Source of the DNA: a virus
Reading direction: 5' to 3' (one strand)
Length of the DNA: 22,733 nucleotides
Virus record (IMG/VR): IMGVR_UViG_3300040801_001153
Coordinates: 1 to 22,733 of that record
Of this stretch, positions 4,511-22,733 are shown one piece after another. Position 1 is the first letter of the stretch; every line of letters begins with the position of its first letter. The notes under the pieces were generated by a model. The model was not told the origin of the DNA. It did no database searches and saw only the letters and a program-made list of their open reading frames with translations. The position numbers were made by a program, and so were the translations under genes.

Positions 4511-6097
4511 ATGGGTTTTTACGTATCGCCTGGTGTATACACTAAAGAAAAAGACCTTAGTGAGATTATCCCGAACATTCAGACAACATCTGGTGCCCTT
4601 GTAGGATATTCTGAAAAAGGAAACACGCAGGAAATTGTGCTAATCACCAATTCTCAACAGTTTATTAACGAGTATGGTAAACCGAAACCGGGTCAGTATT
4701 TTCATTATACTGCCCTTGCTTATCTTGAAAATGGTAACAAGTTGTACTGCATGAGAGCAGTTAATAACGCATTGTATGGTGGCGTTAAAATCATGAAGTC
4801 AGGTTCCGGTCCCAATGGAACACTTGTTACTGGTGTTTCTGTACCAAATTTCCAGTCTGTTTCTGGTGAAGATATTTTGTTTTATATCTTTGCAAAGGAT
4901 CCGGGAAGTTGGAATAACAATTTGGGCGTTCAAATTGCCAATGTTGACGCAGTTAATTACACGTTTGATGTTATCATCTATGAGAAGGATGCAGATGGTA
5001 ATTATCAAATTGTTGAATCGTGGACTGTTTCACGTAAGACGCAGGTCGATGGTTATGGAAAACAACAGTATATAGAAGATGCCATCAATGGTTTCAGTGA
5101 TTACATCACCGTTGCCGATGATACGACGCAGGCTGATACTGTTCTTCCAGAGGTACAACCGACGACGTTGGCTATTGGGGGTGGTTCTAATGGAGCTGCT
5201 GTTTCTGATTCTCATATTAATACGGCTTGGGACAAGTTTGCTAATCCTGATGATGTTGACATTCGTATTCTCATCAATGGTGGGTATTCTTCAGTTCCTG
5301 TGCAACAGAAGATGAAGACAATCGCAGAATCGAGAAAAGATTGTATTGCAATCTTCGACATGCCGTACTCAGCATTGGCGTCAATTAACGATATGTTGAC
5401 GTTCAGGGATACAACGCAGAATTTCAATTCGAGTTATACTGCACTTTACACGCCTTGGGTCAAGATTTATGACCAGTATAATGACAAAATTCTGGATATT
5501 CCTCCGTCTGGATATGTTGCGTCACAAATGGCATACAATGATTATGTATCTGAACCATGGTATGCACCTGCCGGTCTCAATCGTGGCTTATTGAACGTTC
5601 TTGGCGTGACGCAGGTATTCACGCAAGGAGAACGTGACGTTATTTATGCCAAACAGTTGAATCCGTTGCAAACATTCCGTGGTGAAGGTAACGTTATTTG
5701 GGGACAAAAAACACAGCAAGTTAAAGCGTCTGCACTCGACAGGATTAACGTCCGTCGTTTGTTGATTGTATTAGAGAAGGCAATATCTGCTTCTCTTAAA
5801 TACTTCGTGTTTGAGCCTAACAGTGATATCACACGATATCGCATCACAGCCATGATTGACAGTTACTTAGACCTTTTGGGTGCTCGTGGAGCATTCCAGA
5901 CGGAATTGGGTGACAAAGGATACAAGGTTGTGTGTGACGCATCAAATAACACGCCTGCGATTATCGACAGGAACGAGTTGCACGTTGATGTATTCATCAA
6001 ACCGTCACGTGCTGCTGAATTCATTCAGTTGCAAGTCATTATCACTCAGACTGGCGCCTCGTTTGAAGAGTTAATTGCTCGTGGCGTTAATTTCTAA
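4511..6097 (+). CDS. Contractile tail sheath protein (T4 gp18 family)
   Basis: The product forms the outer contractile helix that shortens to drive the tube into the host envelope. The N-terminus (YVSPGVYTKEKDLSEIIP followed by an A-L-V-G-Y strand) is the classic sheath start, and residues about 45-75 continue the conserved N-terminal domain. The C-terminal region (DVFIKPSRAAEFIQLQVIIT, then a T-G-A-S-F-E-E-L end) is the conserved linker domain that joins neighbouring subunits. At 528 residues it is shorter than T4 gp18 (659), so the variable surface domains in the middle (about residues 95-340) are reduced, as in many non-T4 myoviruses. The strong AGGAGGT site upstream and the tube gene directly after it support the assignment. 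Confidence 0.95.
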   Translation: MGFYVSPGVYTKEKDLSEIIPNIQTTSGALVGYSEKGNTQEIVLITNSQQFINEYGKPKPGQYFHYTALAYLENGNKLYCMRAVNNALYGGVKIMKSGSGPNGTLVTGVSVPNFQSVSGEDILFYIFAKDPGSWNNNLGVQIANVDAVNYTFDVIIYEKDADGNYQIVESWTVSRKTQVDGYGKQQYIEDAINGFSDYITVADDTTQADTVLPEVQPTTLAIGGGSNGAAVSDSHINTAWDKFANPDDVDIRILINGGYSSVPVQQKMKTIAESRKDCIAIFDMPYSALASINDMLTFRDTTQNFNSSYTALYTPWVKIYDQYNDKILDIPPSGYVASQMAYNDYVSEPWYAPAGLNRGLLNVLGVTQVFTQGERDVIYAKQLNPLQTFRGEGNVIWGQKTQQVKASALDRINVRRLLIVLEKAISASLKYFVFEPNSDITRYRITAMIDSYLDLLGARGAFQTELGDKGYKVVCDASNNTPAIIDRNELHVDVFIKPSRAAEFIQLQVIITQTGASFEELIARGVNF

Positions 6098-13107: not shown

Positions 13108-13404
13108 ATGAACGGACAAATCGCTAAGGAAGTTTTTCTTGGAAACTTAGGCGTAATGAAAGACGTTTTAAGTTTGGCTGAATTCAAATTAGGTCGTGAT
13201 ACAGACGACTACAAATATTTTAAAAGAAAGACTATGGACTTCTTTTATAACAATATGTTGACAATGTTTCAAAAGATGGAGAGTTCAAAACTCATAGTAA
13301 AATGTGAGTGCAAGTCTCGACTAAGACATGGTTTTTCTCCATGTGAAAATTGTGGTGGTTCAGGTTACAGAAACAATGGTGGGGTGACAGTACCAAATGA
13401 GTAA
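13108..13404 (+). CDS. Small zinc-ribbon protein between spike and PAAR genes
   Basis: The 98-residue protein has a helical N-terminal two thirds (FKLGRDTDDYKYFKRKTMDF, then N-N-M-L-T-M-F) and a C-terminal Cys cluster C66-x-C68-x10-C79-x2-C82 followed by G-G-S-G-Y. The CxxCGGSGY end recalls one half of the DnaJ zinc-finger repeat. One zinc ion is likely bound. Its place between spike and PAAR tip suggests an assembly factor or chaperone for the spike, but I know of no proven family. TAAGGA, formed by the spike stop, serves as its ribosome binding site, and its end overlaps the PAAR gene by 8 bases. Confidence 0.65.
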   Translation: MNGQIAKEVFLGNLGVMKDVLSLAEFKLGRDTDDYKYFKRKTMDFFYNNMLTMFQKMESSKLIVKCECKSRLRHGFSPCENCGGSGYRNNGGVTVPNE

Positions 13405-13669
13405 AATAACAGCTGTTCTAGGAGACCCAAGTGACCACGGTGGAACGCTTATTACCACGAACCAAGACGGTCGATACAGACTTAAGGGAATCGTTGTGTG
13501 TGCTAATGGCTGTTTGCATAGTTGCCCTATTCCCGGTCATGGTGTTACTCCTGTGTCTGCGGTTACTACTCATTCCTATGTCAACGGAAAACTTATCATC
13601 ACAACAGGTGCAGTTGCAGGGTGTGGTGCTAAGATGATACCGCCTTATAGAGGACATCGGGTTGAGTGA
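13397..13669 (+). CDS. PAAR-domain spike tip protein
   Basis: The 90-residue product matches the PAAR-repeat family that sharpens the tip of phage and type VI secretion spikes (T4 gp5.4 has 97 residues). The start VLGDPSDHGGTLITTNQDGR, the strand K-G-I-V-V-C, the segment CANGCLHSCPIPGHG with the following T-P-V-S-A-V-T-T-H-S, and the last repeat Y-V-N-G-K-L-I-I-T-T-G-A-V-A-G-C-G-A are typical. Candidate metal ligands are H14, C35, C39, H41, C43, H48, H59 and C76, more than the usual set, so exact binding residues need a structure. It overlaps the zinc-ribbon gene by 8 bases and a 49-codon ORF by 4. Confidence 0.88.
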   Translation: MSKITAVLGDPSDHGGTLITTNQDGRYRLKGIVVCANGCLHSCPIPGHGVTPVSAVTTHSYVNGKLIITTGAVAGCGAKMIPPYRGHRVE

Positions 13670-14456: not shown

Positions 14457-16139
14457 ATGGCTAATGAGTTAAATTACGTTAATTATGATTTTGACCAACT
14501 GGTACAGCAGTTAATAGACCGTGTTAAATTGAGTGACACTTGGAAGGACACTTACAGGTCTGGTACTGGACAAATGCTAATCGAGTTGTATGCCTACGTT
14601 GCTAACTTGGCGTTGTTCTACGTCGAACGTCGTGCAACAGAAGGCTATATCGAAACTGCACAGTTGCGTTCCAGTATTATCAATTTGGTTCGTCTGTTGA
14701 ATTATACACCAAAGAGAAACGTATCAGCAACTGGTAAGTTAAAATTCACACTTGCGTCTCCGTTGACAAAGAAAGTCTTCATTCCGAAATATACAGAGTG
14801 CCAAACGAATTCGGGTGTCAAATATTTAACAAATGAGGATGCAGTTATATTGCCTGGTGAGACTGAAATCGTAATGTCTGGTATTCAGGGTTCAATAGTT
14901 GAAATCAGTCAGGTTGCCAACGGAAACTTAAATTACGAGATTAAGATTGAAGATACACAAGTTGCTAATTTCAATTTATTTGTTTACGTTGATGGTACAG
15001 AGTGGACGGCTGTTGATTCATTCATCAATTCAGTGAACACATCTGAACATTACAGATTGATTGCAGATATCGATGATACTATAATAATTCGTTTCGGAAA
15101 TAATGTGTTTGGTTTGTCTCCTACGTCAGGTCAGACGATTTTGATTAGATATATCAAGTCAAGTGGTTTGGCTGGAAATGTGTACGAGTTGGACAAGGTT
15201 GTTACAGTCAATTCTGTTATTTACGACGAAGACAGCACAGCAGTTGACAACATTACAGTTACAAACTCTGATGTATTTCTTGGTGGTGATGATCCTGAAT
15301 CAGACGAAGAAATTAGATATGAGGCACCACGTGTGTTTAAGACAGGTGACCGAGCAGTAACTAAAGAAGATTACGTGTCGATTCTTGAAAATTATCCTGG
15401 AATAGCAACTGCAAATGCATGGGGCGAGAATGAAGAGAATCCTCCAAATTACAATATGTTTAATCGTGTGAAACTTGTAATTCTGTTGAACGAGTGGCAA
15501 TTTGCGTCTGTCACGTTCAAACAGGAGTTGTCTGATTACTTATATACCAAATCAATGCTCACTGTCAAATATGAGTATATAAACCCGACTGTTATTTATG
15601 TTGTTCCAGTTGACACAATCAAGGCTGAACGTTCTGCAACGTTGTCTGCTGTGCAGTCTGCAGTCGAGACAGTATTTGACAATGAATTTGTTCTTGGAGA
15701 TACCACTAAGTTGGGTACTCATAAGAGATTGTCTGATTTGGTGAAACAGGTCGAGTTGGTGACGGGTGTTGCACACCACTATCTTCATCTTGAAATAAGA
15801 AAACTGTTGGGGACTCCGTTCGATTCGACATATGATTATGGTTCATATCTTGACTTGTTGAACGTCAAGAAGAATACCGTTAACATATACGTTGGTAGTG
15901 ATATTGTTGCATATGATGATGGCGCTGGTAACTTCACGGATGTGTCTTCTGTTTACACCGTTACAGGTGCCGTTAATTACACGACTGGCTACTTGGGTGT
16001 GAATATTTCCCCCACACCACCGTCAGGCGACGAAATATATGTTAGATATCAACAGGACAGGGACGGAGATTTAATTGTATCCGCAAATCAAATCTTACGA
16101 TTATATGATACCGAAATACCAAGTATTACATATGTATAA
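14457..16139 (+). CDS. Baseplate J-like wedge protein (T4 gp6 family)
   Basis: The 560-residue product forms the inner ring of the baseplate that opens during contraction. The N-terminus shows the family pattern G-T-G-Q-M-L-I-E-L-Y-A-Y-V-A-N followed by LALFYVERRATEGYIETAQL and the helix R-S-S-I-I-N-L-V-R-L-L-N-Y-T-P. The middle contains ESDEEIRYEAPRVFKTGDRA and then V-T-K-E-D-Y, the highly conserved core of Baseplate_J proteins. The C-terminal 110 residues (VNIYVGSDIVAYDDGAGNFT and beyond) look like an added beta domain. It is shorter than T4 gp6 (660). GGGAGG at 14445-14450 gives a strong start. The gp25-J-tail protein I gene order is typical, although here one extra gene stands between J and tail protein I. 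Confidence 0.9.
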   Translation: MANELNYVNYDFDQLVQQLIDRVKLSDTWKDTYRSGTGQMLIELYAYVANLALFYVERRATEGYIETAQLRSSIINLVRLLNYTPKRNVSATGKLKFTLASPLTKKVFIPKYTECQTNSGVKYLTNEDAVILPGETEIVMSGIQGSIVEISQVANGNLNYEIKIEDTQVANFNLFVYVDGTEWTAVDSFINSVNTSEHYRLIADIDDTIIIRFGNNVFGLSPTSGQTILIRYIKSSGLAGNVYELDKVVTVNSVIYDEDSTAVDNITVTNSDVFLGGDDPESDEEIRYEAPRVFKTGDRAVTKEDYVSILENYPGIATANAWGENEENPPNYNMFNRVKLVILLNEWQFASVTFKQELSDYLYTKSMLTVKYEYINPTVIYVVPVDTIKAERSATLSAVQSAVETVFDNEFVLGDTTKLGTHKRLSDLVKQVELVTGVAHHYLHLEIRKLLGTPFDSTYDYGSYLDLLNVKKNTVNIYVGSDIVAYDDGAGNFTDVSSVYTVTGAVNYTTGYLGVNISPTPPSGDEIYVRYQQDRDGDLIVSANQILRLYDTEIPSITYV

Positions 16140-16643: not shown

Positions 16644-18038
16644 ATGAGTGGACTTCAATACAACAAGATTCAACAGTGGAATGACTTCGAATACAATCGT
16701 TGGGGAATTGATGAAACCCTGACGCTTGAGTTTGGCATAGACGCTGAATTTTTGATACCTCTTGGTGAACAGTACGTTGCCAATGAAGGTGCTCTTGAAT
16801 TCATTATTACATCTGATGAAACAGAAACTGATAGAAATGAAGCCAACGAGAGAAATACAGAATTCATCATCGAAGTCGAATTCGACTTGTTGACTTTGTA
16901 CGCAGATTTTGTCGATTTGTTACCGTTGATTCCGACGAAGTTTCACGATTCGCAGACTTTGAAAGATTACATTTATGACGTTGGACTTTACGTTGGTACT
17001 TGGCTAAGTAAAACCCAAGAGTTGTCTATTCTTCACGATCCATACAGAGTTGAAGAAGACTACATTCAACATCTTGCAAATCTCATTGGATATGAGATTA
17101 TCAGAAGTGAACCTACAATAGACGAAATGAGGAATCAGGTCTCACAGGCGATTCCTTGGTACAAGATAAAAGGTTCATATTACTCTTTGAAGTACATCAT
17201 GCAGTTGTTGAATATGACGGTGAACATTTATGATTTCTACACCAATGATTATTCGACATTTGTTAAACAGGCTTGGTTTGTAGGAGAAGAAAATGAGAAT
17301 CCACCGGGTTTAGATTCTTCTTATTATAAGTCACCTCATTTCGGATTGGAAGTTCTTTTAAATATTGTTTACGGTTCAGGGTCGAGTGAATACTTATTCA
17401 GTCAAGTGCAGAAAGAAGACATTTATACTGCTACTGAACGTGTTAGACCAGTAAACACAGTACCACATTACTCGATTTTGTTGAATCCAGTAACGAACGA
17501 GACACGAAATACAATAACGGTTGATGGAAACATTAAGACTGCTACTCTCATAGAAAACTGGATTACAACGTTCTTGTATTTCGACCAAGGTTTCTTCGGA
17601 GGTACGCCTGATTCACTTGCAGCATATAACCTGCATGAATACAATAACGAAGATAATTACTCTATTTACAACAATGCAGGCGATTATCAGGGTTGGAATT
17701 TCGATGATGGTCACAATTTTGACCAAGTAAATGACGCATTTTTAAATCAGATTATTAAGTTTAAACTTGGTAATGGCAACAAAGGCATTGATCCAAGCAC
17801 TCCCGGATTCGCACTACAGAATCCGGTGATAGAAGGTATTGTTGCTGAAAAACGTATATTGACAGACGTAGTTGAATTTGAATTCACGATTCCTGAAAAT
17901 GTGGTTCAGTTGGGTTTGTCTGAATTGGGATTGTTTTTCGCAGATGGAACGACGATGGTGTTAGCGTCAACATTTCCCGATGTGGACAAGTTAATTGATA
18001 TTGAATTAAGAATACTTGTACAAGTGTATAAAGCCTAA
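16644..18038 (+). CDS. Tail protein I-like baseplate wedge protein with fibre-linking C-terminus
   Basis: In this 464-residue product, residues about 91-200 resemble the P2 gpI / tail protein I family: DLLPLIPTKF, then D-V-G-L-Y-V-G-T-W-L-S-K-T-Q-E-L-S-I-L-H-D-P-Y-R-V, then YIQHLANLIGYEIIRSEPT and the helix ending in W-Y-K-I-K-G-S-Y-Y-S-L-K-Y-I. That domain joins wedges to tail fibres. The first 90 residues are an acidic extension. The C-terminus, with GLSELGLFFADGTTMVLAST, resembles the small beta domain seen at the end of phage baseplate and fibre-attachment proteins. A role equivalent to T4 gp7 or P2 gpI is inferred. There is no strong ribosome binding site; the start is two bases after the previous stop. 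Confidence 0.75.
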   Translation: MSGLQYNKIQQWNDFEYNRWGIDETLTLEFGIDAEFLIPLGEQYVANEGALEFIITSDETETDRNEANERNTEFIIEVEFDLLTLYADFVDLLPLIPTKFHDSQTLKDYIYDVGLYVGTWLSKTQELSILHDPYRVEEDYIQHLANLIGYEIIRSEPTIDEMRNQVSQAIPWYKIKGSYYSLKYIMQLLNMTVNIYDFYTNDYSTFVKQAWFVGEENENPPGLDSSYYKSPHFGLEVLLNIVYGSGSSEYLFSQVQKEDIYTATERVRPVNTVPHYSILLNPVTNETRNTITVDGNIKTATLIENWITTFLYFDQGFFGGTPDSLAAYNLHEYNNEDNYSIYNNAGDYQGWNFDDGHNFDQVNDAFLNQIIKFKLGNGNKGIDPSTPGFALQNPVIEGIVAEKRILTDVVEFEFTIPENVVQLGLSELGLFFADGTTMVLASTFPDVDKLIDIELRILVQVYKA

Positions 18039-18050
18039 GGAGGTAATAAA

Positions 18051-19580
18051 ATGACAATTCCTGCTATTAATTTTCCAACTTCGCAAGACGACAATTCCAC
18101 GTTGTTTGAAGTTGTAAACAATCTGGTGACGACTCTTGCTGCCAATATAGACAATGTTGTTGCGTCGATTGATTTGTCTGATGCTTCGGCATTTCCATCG
18201 ACAGGTGGTTTCTTCTCTATTGGAACAGAAGTTATTCACTATGAATCTAAGACCGGAAATACGATGAATAACTGCACACGTGGAGCCGATGGTTCTACTG
18301 CGACGTCACATAACATTGGTGACGCTGTAAGTATGCGTGTTATTGCTATTCATCACAATCGATTGAAGGATGCTATCATCGCTCTCGAAACTTGGGCATT
18401 GGGCGGTGGTGGAGGTTCTGGTGCCGGCATGATTAAAGAATTCAATCAGAACGGTCACGGTTTCGCAGTAAACGACGTTGTTCGATTTAACGGTACAATC
18501 TTCGTCAAGGCACAGGCAGATTCAGTTGTAAATGCTGAAGCGTTGGGTATCGTCGTTGAAGTCGTTGATGTTAACAATTTCAAATTGCAGTCAGGTGGTT
18601 TCTGTGAAAATCTGTCTGGTTTCACAGCAGGCACTGTGTATTTCTTGTCAGACGTTACTGCAGGGTTATTGCAGAGTGCAGAACCGACTGATGATGGTAC
18701 GATTTCGAAACCGTTGTTTATTGCGTTGTCTGCCACGACGGGTTATTTCTTCAACTTCCGTGGATTACAGGTCGGGCCCTCAAATTCAGTATATTCGTCG
18801 TTCACGAATGCTGATTTGACAGACAATGTACTTACAATTACGCACAATCTTGGTCGTAAGTATGTTGCAGTCACGATTATTGATGATAATGACAACCCAG
18901 TTGATGCTGACCTGATTACATATGTCAATGATAACTCTTTGACGGTTGATTTGACAGAGTACGCACCAATTTCTGGTACTTGGCGTTACATTGTTCTGAG
19001 TTCAGGTTCTCCGACAACAAATACGCCTGCGTTGATTCAGAACGACGTTGCTGATACACGTGTTGAGGCAAAAGCAGATAAGACAATTGTTGAGACTGCA
19101 AATAGCATTCAGGCACGTAAAGTAAATGCTGATGGTTCGCAGAATCTACCTGCTCAGCCAGCGTTTAGTGTTAGAGCAGATGTTGTTCAGTCTAATATTC
19201 CTAATACTGGCTACACAAAAATGACTCTTAATAATGAGATATTCGATGTAGGAAATAACTTCGATACAGTTAATTCAGAGTTTGTTGCTCCAGTGGCAGG
19301 TTATTATTTTGTCTGTGGTAGTGTTCGTTACAGAAACATGGATCAAGGTGCTAATGAATATCGAGTGAGATTCAAAAAAGGTTCTGGGTATGGTTATTCA
19401 CAGAATTCTTTTGATCCTAGACAGTTTGCAGGCGATGTTGTTGGTGATATCACACTAAACATTAGTGAATTGCTTTATTTATCAGCAGGAGAATCGTTAC
19501 AGTTGCACGGATATCAGATTGGTGGGACAGCACAAACTGATATTGATAACGCATTCATGTCAGGAGTTTTGGTAAAGTAA
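18051..19580 (+). CDS. Tail fibre protein with C1q-like C-terminal domain
   Basis: The 509-residue protein is modular. Residues 38-95 (SDASAFPSTGGFFSIGTEVI, then N-C-T-R-G-A-D-G) form a beta module often found near fibre N-termini. Residues 118-126 are a glycine hinge (GGGGGSGAG). Residues about 128-240 are beta-rich, and about 245-318 form another sandwich with ITHNLGRKYVAVTIIDD. After a helical spacer (NDVADTRVEAKADKTIVETA), residues 371-509 match a C1q/TNF-like jelly roll: AFSVRADV, Y-T-K-M-T-L-N-N-E-I-F-D-V-G-N-N-F-D, F-V-A-P-V-A-G-Y-Y-F, L-S-A-G-E-S-L-Q-L, and a final F-M-S-G-V-L-V-K. C1q-type ends are trimeric binding heads. Receptor binding is inferred. A strong AAGGAGGT site precedes the start. 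Confidence 0.78.
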   Translation: MTIPAINFPTSQDDNSTLFEVVNNLVTTLAANIDNVVASIDLSDASAFPSTGGFFSIGTEVIHYESKTGNTMNNCTRGADGSTATSHNIGDAVSMRVIAIHHNRLKDAIIALETWALGGGGGSGAGMIKEFNQNGHGFAVNDVVRFNGTIFVKAQADSVVNAEALGIVVEVVDVNNFKLQSGGFCENLSGFTAGTVYFLSDVTAGLLQSAEPTDDGTISKPLFIALSATTGYFFNFRGLQVGPSNSVYSSFTNADLTDNVLTITHNLGRKYVAVTIIDDNDNPVDADLITYVNDNSLTVDLTEYAPISGTWRYIVLSSGSPTTNTPALIQNDVADTRVEAKADKTIVETANSIQARKVNADGSQNLPAQPAFSVRADVVQSNIPNTGYTKMTLNNEIFDVGNNFDTVNSEFVAPVAGYYFVCGSVRYRNMDQGANEYRVRFKKGSGYGYSQNSFDPRQFAGDVVGDITLNISELLYLSAGESLQLHGYQIGGTAQTDIDNAFMSGVLVK

Positions 19581-19620: not shown

Positions 19621-19627
19621 AAGGAGG
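19621..19627 (+). promoter_or_regulatory. Ribosome binding site deciding the start of the LamG gene
   Basis: AAGGAGG lies seven bases before the ATG at 19635 and fixes this codon as the start of the long open frame. It is as strong as the sites before sheath and tube. Confidence 0.8.
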
Positions 19628-19634
19628 AAATATA

Positions 19635-22600
19635 ATGAAAACAGGCGTAAAGACAAATTATTTAGACAGACTTTACAATAAAGAAATGGCTGCTGCTGGT
19701 TTGGCTGTTCTTGATAGAGTGAACAACGGTGGCTACTGTATCAAAGGAAATGGTGTCGATTCATACCTTTCTGCACCAAATCACTCTGCATTTGACTTGG
19801 GTACGGGTCCGTGGACATGTGAATTCTGGGCAAAAGGTCAGTGGAAGTGGCATGAAGTATTACAGTTTTATCAGGATGCAAACAACTGGTGGGCTTTTCA
19901 ATTGAACAGTGCTGGTACATCACTTGGTGTTAGATGTGAAACAAAAGTTGGTGGTGTGACGTATTCAGCATCATCTGCAACGTTCAATTCTTATGAAGAT
20001 ACTTGGCATCATTATTGTTTTGTAAAAGAAACGTCAGGTATTGAAAAGTTAAAGATTTATGTTGATGGTATTTTAGTTAATAACTCACATCTAGATAATG
20101 ACTTTGGTACTGTTTCTTTGAATTTCACAGGTACGTTGAGAATTGGTGGTAGTCTTATATCTGCACAATACTCAATGGGTTATATGTATGGTATCAGATT
20201 GTCAAAAGGTATTGCACGATATTCAGAAGATTTCAAACCTTCGAGACAGAATCACGTACCTGACGAGTATGATTCGTTGTTGTTGGATACAAATCAATTC
20301 GGTTTTCCACGTGATTTAAGTCAATATAATCATCAGTTAACAAATTATAAAATGCAACAACTGGTTGATACTCCGTTTGGTGCTGCATCCAAGAATGTTG
20401 TTATTGAATCTAACAATTTGATTGTAACATCAATGAGACAACACTATGACGAAGATTTTCCTCAATTTCCGACAATATATTTGCCAATGGATGAAGATGA
20501 GGCTCTTACTGATGTAAACAATTACGGTTCTAAAAGAGATATCTATTTGGCATATAAGGTTGATGCGTCTGTTAACACTTCATTATTAAATATTTATGGT
20601 GTTGTTGGTTCTGCATTCGAATTCAACGGTACAAGTGAGTATATTAATGCTGATAATTTATTATCTGGTATAATTAATGACAGAGTTGGTGCAATATCGG
20701 TGTGGATATTTCCATATGATGTGTCTTCTTCAAGAGAAATATTTTATTTGGGAGATACAAACGGACCCGCTAAGGCTGGGTTGGAGTTGAATGCCAAGAG
20801 AATAAAATTCGAAGTCATGATAGCAGGATCGAATGTTCTTGAAGTAAGAACAGCAAATGAAGTTATAAGAAATGGAGAATGGAATCACGTTGTTTTTGTT
20901 CAACGAGGAAATGGCAAAGGTGTTACAATGTTTGTCAACGGTGTTGAACAGACAATGCAGTATACTGTATCTACAAATATAGATGCGTTTTGGTACACAG
21001 GTAGTGCAGTATATGACAATTTAAGAATTGGTTGTACAAACCTGAACAACGGTGGAAATACTGGATTCTTTCCTGGTCGTATTGATGAATTCAAATATTT
21101 TAATTATGCACTTGAATTACGACATGCTCGTGCGTTGTATCATCATGGAATTGATAGACTGACTGAAAATATACTATACAATGATTTTCCGGGAGACAAA
21201 TTAACAGTTGGTGTAAACAATTCATTATACGTTGACAATTCTCATGATGTTGTTAGATCAAATTATAAAGATGTTCTTTTATTGCACTTCGACGGAACAG
21301 ACGGTTCAACGACATTCGTTGATGAGGCTGGTCACGTCATTACAGCACATGGAAATGCTCAACATGATACTGCTCAAAAGAAATTTGGAGTCAGTTCAGC
21401 ATTGTTTGATGGAACAGGAGATTACCTTACAATTCCACATTCAAACGACTTTGAGTTTGGAAATATGGATTTTACAATTGATTTCTGGTTGAAGTTTAAT
21501 ACACCAGTAACTGCTGATATTCTTAGTATGATTGACGTTGGTACGAATTCGCCACTTTTAATAAGGGTTCATAATGATGGAAGACTTGCTTGGTATAGTC
21601 AACAAGGAGTACCAGGTGAACCTTATGTATATTGTTGGTGGACTGAATCACTTCCACATGTTGCTGATGGTAATTGGCATCATCTTGCATTCGTTAGAGA
21701 AAGAATGTATGGAAGATGGTATGTTGATGGAAAATATGTGAAGACTGTAGTTCCAACTCAAGGTTTCTGGTCTGGTATGGAACCTGTTCCTCTTGCAACT
21801 TCTGTGTTGTATATTGGATCTATTGATGGAACTCAGAGTTTCATGAATGGTTGGCTTGATGAATTGCGAATCACAAAAGGATTGGCACGATTTACAGATA
21901 ATTTCACACCAATGAAAGGTCAGTATTATCAGTCTAACGATGAAATGACAACATCAGTTGAACAGACAACTGCAATTCCTGAAAAGGCAGGGTGTTCTCT
22001 TATTTTACAGGAATCGGAGAACGTTGTGTTGGCTCTTCAAGCATCAGTTAGTGAAAATGATTTGACAGGTAAAGTTGCCACCTATGTCGACCAAGCGTCA
22101 ATTGATACAGAAGTTTATCGTTTCAATGGTAAGAGTTTCAAATTTAACTCACAGACTGATTGCGTAGCATTTCCTTACTCTGCAGATTTTGAATTAGAGA
22201 AAGGAGACTTTACTGTTGAAGGTTGGTATAACTTTAATGCTCAACCATCAACTGGTACAAGTCTCGGTATGTTTGGTACTTGGAAATCAGTTGCAGGACA
22301 GAAATCATGGCGTTTAGTGTATAATAATGATGCTGGAACTCTGAAATTCTGGTGGAATTATTCAACAGATGGAAGTGCAGAAACAAATTGGAAAATTGCT
22401 TGGACTGCTGAATTGAATCGTTGGTATCATATTGCTCTCGTTCGTCGTGTTGATGCTAATAAAATTGAAATATTCGTTGACGGTATTAGTGTTGGTTCTA
22501 CTGTTGCTACTTTTACTCCATTCAAAAATAGTGGTGACTTCGCAGTTGGAGCTGATGGCAATACTGGTGATTATTCAATGAGTGGTCACATTGACGACTT

Positions 22601-22733
22601 CATCATTACTAAAGGCGTTGCCAAGTATCGTAATGAATTCGTTCCTCCGTCAAGATTGCATGGTCATGAAAGTGTGAAAGTGCAGTTTAAACGTGACGAA
22701 CGATACTTAACTGTTCGATTCGATGGTCAACCT
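19635..22733 (+). CDS. Giant tail-fibre/adhesin with four LamG-like modules, 3' end outside window
   Basis: The frame is open from the ATG at 19635 to the right edge (1033 codons, no stop). Four concanavalin A/laminin G-like modules can be read at residues about 34-205, 281-505, 548-762 and 797-1011. Each has an early beta pattern of the type S-x-x-F-x-L/F-G-x-x-x-x-T-x-x-F/G-W, a W-H/Y/N-H motif (TWHHYCFVKE, EWNHVVFVQR, NWHHLAFVRE, RWYHIALVRR) and about ten residues later Y/F-V-D/N-G. Modules 1, 3 and 4 end in K-G-I/L/V-A-R/K-Y/F; module 2 is more divergent and ends in GRIDEFKYFNYALE. Such modules bind sugars or proteins. The start of the protein (MKTGVKTNYLDRLYNKEMAA) is short and helical. 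Host-surface binding at the end of the tail cluster is inferred. The C-terminus, with any trimerisation or chaperone domain, lies outside. Confidence 0.85.
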   Translation, partial: MKTGVKTNYLDRLYNKEMAAAGLAVLDRVNNGGYCIKGNGVDSYLSAPNHSAFDLGTGPWTCEFWAKGQWKWHEVLQFYQDANNWWAFQLNSAGTSLGVRCETKVGGVTYSASSATFNSYEDTWHHYCFVKETSGIEKLKIYVDGILVNNSHLDNDFGTVSLNFTGTLRIGGSLISAQYSMGYMYGIRLSKGIARYSEDFKPSRQNHVPDEYDSLLLDTNQFGFPRDLSQYNHQLTNYKMQQLVDTPFGAASKNVVIESNNLIVTSMRQHYDEDFPQFPTIYLPMDEDEALTDVNNYGSKRDIYLAYKVDASVNTSLLNIYGVVGSAFEFNGTSEYINADNLLSGIINDRVGAISVWIFPYDVSSSREIFYLGDTNGPAKAGLELNAKRIKFEVMIAGSNVLEVRTANEVIRNGEWNHVVFVQRGNGKGVTMFVNGVEQTMQYTVSTNIDAFWYTGSAVYDNLRIGCTNLNNGGNTGFFPGRIDEFKYFNYALELRHARALYHHGIDRLTENILYNDFPGDKLTVGVNNSLYVDNSHDVVRSNYKDVLLLHFDGTDGSTTFVDEAGHVITAHGNAQHDTAQKKFGVSSALFDGTGDYLTIPHSNDFEFGNMDFTIDFWLKFNTPVTADILSMIDVGTNSPLLIRVHNDGRLAWYSQQGVPGEPYVYCWWTESLPHVADGNWHHLAFVRERMYGRWYVDGKYVKTVVPTQGFWSGMEPVPLATSVLYIGSIDGTQSFMNGWLDELRITKGLARFTDNFTPMKGQYYQSNDEMTTSVEQTTAIPEKAGCSLILQESENVVLALQASVSENDLTGKVATYVDQASIDTEVYRFNGKSFKFNSQTDCVAFPYSADFELEKGDFTVEGWYNFNAQPSTGTSLGMFGTWKSVAGQKSWRLVYNNDAGTLKFWWNYSTDGSAETNWKIAWTAELNRWYHIALVRRVDANKIEIFVDGISVGSTVATFTPFKNSGDFAVGADGNTGDYSMSGHIDDFIITKGVAKYRNEFVPPSRLHGHESVKVQFKRDERYLTVRFDGQP

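Follow-up and report, generated by a model that had tools for sequence, protein, structure and literature searches.

A tandem array of LamG modules behind the baseplate genes of an uncultured contractile-tailed phage, a probable tail-associated adhesin

The window, the whole stretch of DNA analyzed here, is an entire IMG/VR record, a linear fragment of 22,733 bases that carries tail genes in the order sheath, two tube-like proteins, a hub-like protein, a gp5-like hub protein, PAAR, gp25, gp6, Tail_P2_I, a fibre-like gene and a LamG array (Table 1). The tail sheath identifies a contractile-tailed phage, and with the sheath, tube, gp25, gp6 and Tail_P2_I genes all recognized, the myovirus tail cluster described in an earlier note on this DNA is well founded. 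The array gene occupies the distal end of this tail and baseplate cluster, a position considered characteristic of receptor-binding proteins. Two further genes of the left end deserve mention: a small protein (1109-1639) contains a repeat-like region (GSGYQVDDELTV..GGSGYQIANNITV) and has weak matches to many families of phage virion and baseplate proteins, and a Cupin-domain gene (1648-2088; Pfam Cupin_2, E 3.7e-7) lies within the structural cluster and lacks a counterpart in the searched stretch of the closest relative, G003, described below.

Table 1. Tail-cluster genes and LamG-array features in the window, with the array genes of the closest relative, G003.
Feature	Coordinates	Strand	Description
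Tail sheath	4511..6097	+	PHROG 23, E 9e-94; Pfam Phage_sheath_1
Baseplate wedge gp6 / Baseplate_J	14457..16139	+	PHROG 219, E 9e-64; Pfam
Tail_P2_I (gpI-like) baseplate protein	16644..18038	+	Pfam, E 2.8e-6
Fibre-like gene directly upstream of the array	18051..19580	+	N-terminal 323 aa 60% identical to G003
Ribosome-binding site AAGGAGG	19621..19627	+	7 bases upstream of the array-gene ATG; sequence read
LamG-array gene	19635..22733	+	1033 codons; 3' end beyond the contig
N-terminal anchor motif (MKTGVKTNYLDRLYNKEMAAAGLAVLDRV)	19635..19721	+	Residues 1-29; common to G003 arrays A, B and C
LamG module M1	19731..20249	+	Residues ~33-205; KGIAR type; without the usual N-terminal strand segment ahead of FDG
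Candidate orphan N-terminal LamG strand segment	20268..20390	+	Residues 212-252, between M1 and M2
LamG module M2	20586..21149	+	Residues ~318-505; other LamG_3 subtype; C-terminal helix (NYALELRHARALY); no KGxAR
LamG module M3	21267..21938	+	Residues ~545-768; KGLAR type; complete canonical module
LamG module M4	21981..22670	+	Residues ~783-1012; KGVAK type
Probable lead-in to a fifth module (SVKVQFKRDERYLTVRFDGQP)	22671..22733	+	Alignment with G003 array A and a low-confidence modelled hairpin
G003 arrays A, B, C and D	L138 379-13552		852, 1532, 592 and 908 aa; 3, 6, 2 and 4 modules

The array gene is open at its 3' end after 1033 codons without a stop, an event with a chance of ~2e-34 at the base composition of the window, and together with the strong ribosome-binding site this confirms the uninterrupted reading reported earlier. 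Its description as the terminal gene of the tail cluster does not hold: since the window is the entire record, the gene is last only because the contig ends, and G003 has four consecutive array genes in the equivalent slot, so that further genes of the cluster probably follow it.

The tandem LamG array proposed from direct reading is borne out by Pfam Laminin_G_3 (PF13385), which matches the array protein (P0001) in four stretches (nucleotides 19752-20198, 20628-21116, 21408-21875 and 22158-22607) with an E of 8.6e-59 for the whole protein; each domain scores 47.5-67.1 bits, above the curated cut-off of 27.6 bits, and the gene thus carries more than the three tandem modules per ORF taken as the mark of an array. 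The module boundaries in Table 1 agree roughly with the cuts given earlier, and the shared signatures were located as claimed: W-x-H (residues 124, 416, 681 and 930) and [YF]V[DN]G (residues 142, 433, 696 and 947) occur in all four modules, and KG[IVL]A[RK] is confined to modules 1, 3 and 4 (residues 191, 748 and 993). The C-terminus of M2 is unlike those of M1, M3 and M4, lacking KGxAR and closing with a helix ending (NYALELRHARALYHHG) similar to that of modules in Synechococcus phage S-SKS1 and Pseudomonas phage pPa_SNUABM_DT01 that end in ..NKALTSSEV or ..DKALSLEEV, and arrays combining KGxAR and non-KGxAR endings occur in other phages. The segment at residues 212-252 scores 7.4 bits against an HMM of N-terminal LamG segments, a value reached by 8 of 3000 shuffles (p ~0.003), and a strand is modelled at residues 213-217, within this segment after M1. 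Its resemblance to the missing N-terminal strand is suggestive only, and may reflect either a truncated extra module or a circular permutation of M1.

Structural models were built with AlphaFold2 from alignments of viral relatives and compared by Foldseek with the PDB and with viral models. Both the M1-M2 and the M3-M4 models consist of beta-sandwiches of the concanavalin A-like fold, as the earlier note had anticipated, with lower confidence for M2 and the linkers. The M3-M4 model has a mean pLDDT of 79 with module cores mostly above 90, and the M1-M2 model a mean of 67, with M1 good, M2 moderate and the linkers poor. The best PDB match of M3-M4 is laminin alpha-2 LG4-5 (E 1.9e-10), those of M1-M2 are laminin-511 and neurexin (E 1e-12), and CBM40 carbohydrate modules also match M1-M2 with a target-normalised TM of up to 0.75. 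The laminin alpha-2 LG4-5 and neurexin LNS domains are, like the modelled modules, tandem concanavalin-like beta-sandwiches, but they belong to animal extracellular proteins and are only 8-15% identical to the window modules, and the common fold does not establish common ligands. Clostridial neurotoxin binding domains, also matched by the M3-M4 model (7-17% identity), likewise share only the fold, and a toxin reading was rejected. Against viral models, PhiJL001 gp88 and the LamG proteins of S-SKS1 score best, and the matches include a 'putative adhesin' from Pseudomonas phage PaBG.

Phage proteins with tandem LamG modules are already known and common, and the window gene is an ordinary further example. 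When one LamG module of a cyanophage served as query, 421 IMG/VR matches were confirmed, viral ORFs in the sampled loci carry 1-12 LamG modules each, and the isolate matches to P0001 comprise 331 phage records, mostly cyanophages and all below 60% identity. An NCBIfam search returned nothing, a PDB sequence search gave marginal laminin matches only, and single-protein pattern searches of viral contigs with P0001 or M3 found no relative. The multi-LamG proteins of S-SKS1 (AGH31518 and neighbours) resemble the window protein in having tandem LamG_3 modules of mixed KGxAR and non-KGxAR subtypes (5 matches in 960 aa) and are its second-best BFVD structural match (E 5e-29), but they lack its N-terminal anchor, are ~27% identical and have unrelated neighbouring genes. 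Similarly, the adjacent genes gp001 and gp002 of the jumbo phage pPa_SNUABM_DT01 encode three LamG_3 modules each, but its LamG proteins (gp001-gp003) differ from the window protein in N-terminus and genome position and are 23% identical to it; these multi-LamG genes are published, with an interaction with surfaces proposed by the authors (PMC8541153). Laminin G3 lectin domains on the tail fibres and virions of jumbo phages have been given a proposed role in carbohydrate adhesion (PMC7824862), and in marine phages the commonest identifiable genes of variable islands are host-recognition genes, including carbohydrate-binding, lectin-like, C1q and tail fibre genes (PMC3909814).

A gene-alignment search of viral contigs with gp6 yielded 33 viral loci, the closest being those of G003 (IMGVR_UViG_3300032797_000032; loci L014 and L138), a 107 kb uncultured phage. 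G003 encodes 16 LamG modules in total, 15 of them in four consecutive ORFs of the equivalent slot and one elsewhere. These arrays follow gp6, Tail_P2_I and a fibre-like gene and consist of tandem LamG_3 modules, as in the window, so that a counterpart in a phage tail cluster, as the earlier note had sought, does exist. They differ in that array A has only three modules and lacks counterparts of M1-M2, in the presence of four array genes in a row, which is a lineage-specific expansion, and in module identities of 28-40%. Elsewhere in the cluster, the fibre-like gene is 60% identical over its first 323 aa only, its distal part being replaced and weakly C1q-like (PDB C1q-related factor, E 0.01; Pfam C1q below cut-off), and the PAAR-motif protein (13397-13669) is the most conserved gene at 90% identity. 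Methyltransferase and glycosyltransferase genes follow the tail genes of G003 (L138 14454-16595), and in another relative (L006 13652-21235) the tail genes are followed by glycosyltransferases, a GDP-mannose 4,6-dehydratase-like gene and E1/transketolase-like genes; gene content at these two loci suggests phage-coded sugar modification.

Other baseplate relatives differ in the genes that follow Tail_P2_I, and none of those reaching that far, apart from G003, has an array there, which is a weak statement as many loci are short. In L022, L023 (3447-5513) and L032 a LamG module lies within the Tail_P2_I ORF itself, adjoined in L023 by a weak CBM_5_12 match. A scan of genome contigs with the baseplate gene gave no prophage clue and no host clue.

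The window array and G003 arrays A, B and C share their N-terminal motif. An HMM from these three G003 arrays finds the window anchor with an iE of 1.5e-9, the next unrelated match having an iE of 7 (leave-one-out), and the anchor is identical to that of array A at 61% of 28 positions (residues 1-28); among cultured phages there was no match, although this is a weak test. At the other end, arrays A, B and C carry a C-terminal cap (...QGxGxYWR) of ~50-60 aa. The comparison of module order with a related phage, suggested in the earlier note, proved informative: window residues 547-1031 are collinear with m1, m2 and the start of m3 of array A (33% identity, E 1.5e-66), M3-M4 being collinear with array A and the window tail up to residue 1031 aligning with the linker and first strand of m3. 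As this match runs into the start of m3, a fifth module is likely to lie past the contig end, and the full window array has at least four and, judging from this alignment, probably five or more modules. Nothing in array A is collinear with window residues ~30-545, which comprise M1, the following segment and M2, and the gap between anchor and m1 is only ~56 aa there, compared with ~515 aa for M1-M2 in the window; thus two modules have been gained in the window or lost in G003, directly behind the anchor.

We consider it likely that the array gene encodes a tail-associated, bead-on-string multivalent adhesin of this contractile-tailed phage. In the mechanism that we infer, the protein would be carried on the virion and would influence host range: the short conserved N-terminal motif would probably dock it on the baseplate or a neighbouring fibre; the concanavalin-like LamG_3 beta-sandwiches would follow one another along the chain, facing outwards and binding carbohydrates or other surfaces; the combination of several weak binding sites of different kinds would bring avidity and breadth; and the surfaces recognised would shift as modules are gained, are lost or diverge. 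Identity to G003 is 63-75% in the sheath (75%), gp6 (69%) and Tail_P2_I (63%) but only 28-33% across the array, where the anchor retains 61% against ~33% for the modules in this one relative, and this drop behind a retained anchor is the conserved-base, variable-tip pattern of phage receptor-binding proteins. We know of no experiment showing a LamG_3 module of this kind binding a phage receptor, and the LamG fold also serves in protein binding, as a spacer and as an enzyme appendage. The earlier note's suggestion that this gene could be the main host-range determinant has to be weighed against the four array genes of G003, the likewise variable distal domain of the gene directly upstream, and the lack of a LamG array in this slot in most baseplate relatives.

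It is also conceivable, though we think it unlikely, that the modules serve only to lengthen or stabilise a fibre or the baseplate, or adhere without specificity to mucus, capsule or particles, with host range set by another protein such as the product of the gene at 18051. Some PHROGs with LamG_3 are indeed classed as 'head and packaging: virion structural protein', the replaced, weakly C1q-like distal domain of the fibre-like gene would suit such a division of labour, and the authors describing pPa_SNUABM_DT01 predict an accessory role only for their LamG proteins (PMC8541153). However, the array gene lies in the tail cluster right behind Tail_P2_I and the fibre-like gene, and its modules diverge far more than the neighbouring structural genes, which is unexpected of a pure spacer.

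A separate question is how the four modules arose. The earlier note took their strong divergence, together with the KGxAR ending common to M1, M3 and M4, as a sign of old duplication or recombinational swapping; the divergence stands, but the ending is a hallmark of the family and not of internal copies. Among 305 phage LamG modules collected, W-x-H is present in 280, [YF]x[DN]G in 300 and KG[ILVYF]A[RK] in 131, and signatures distributed so widely provide no evidence of duplication within the window gene. That M1, M3 and M4 are nevertheless tandem duplicates formed inside this gene and since diverged gains something from pairwise alignment scores above those of shuffles (z 11-24) and from the AU test, by which a single M1+M3+M4 clade is not rejected (p 0.196), yet it appears improbable to us: the best matches of all three are modules from other phages, and M3 groups with m3 of G003 array A (support 96/88) in a 64-module tree that places M1 and M4 elsewhere. 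M2 pairs there with a cyanophage module (95/80) on long branches. The pairing of M3 with m3 indicates common lineage only, and module order was read from the collinear alignment and not from the tree because the modules are so divergent. The collinearity of M3-M4 with array A suggests that this pair was probably already present before the two phages diverged, which also speaks against duplication within the window gene, as does its lack of recent DNA repeats. Recent tandem copying was rejected, there being no DNA repeats above ~75% identity in the array gene, as was a diversity-generating retroelement, since neither G003 nor the Pfam scan of the window proteins revealed a reverse transcriptase.

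We regard as very improbable a catalytic role, in which one or more modules would themselves be enzyme domains or would be appended to a depolymerase with its catalytic part past the contig end: the concanavalin-like fold is also found in glucanases, M2 weakly matches a sialidase N-terminal domain (E 0.001, below cut-off) and the window C-terminus is outside the contig, but no catalytic family scored above its cut-off, the complete G003 arrays all end in further LamG modules (three with the cap) and no enzyme domain, and the N-terminal domain of sialidases (CBM40) is a binding module in its own right.

Returning to the adhesin, we raise as a speculation a broader arrangement in which the single docking motif of this lineage serves interchangeable LamG-array adhesins, encoded by one to four genes in a row with two to six modules each. 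Such a combinatorial, multi-armed lectin set could change its specificity through the shuffling of whole modules behind the anchor.

The window sequence alone leaves the general picture of LamG proteins in phages unchanged; what it usefully adds is the anchor, the family of four array genes in G003, and a gain or loss of modules that can be seen directly. If the window protein is an adhesin, this group of uncultured myoviruses would have a clear anatomy, in which a conserved docking motif precedes an array whose rate of change far exceeds that of the other tail parts. LamG arrays are common in environmental viruses and have hardly been tested, and a ligand for even one module would be useful for host prediction.
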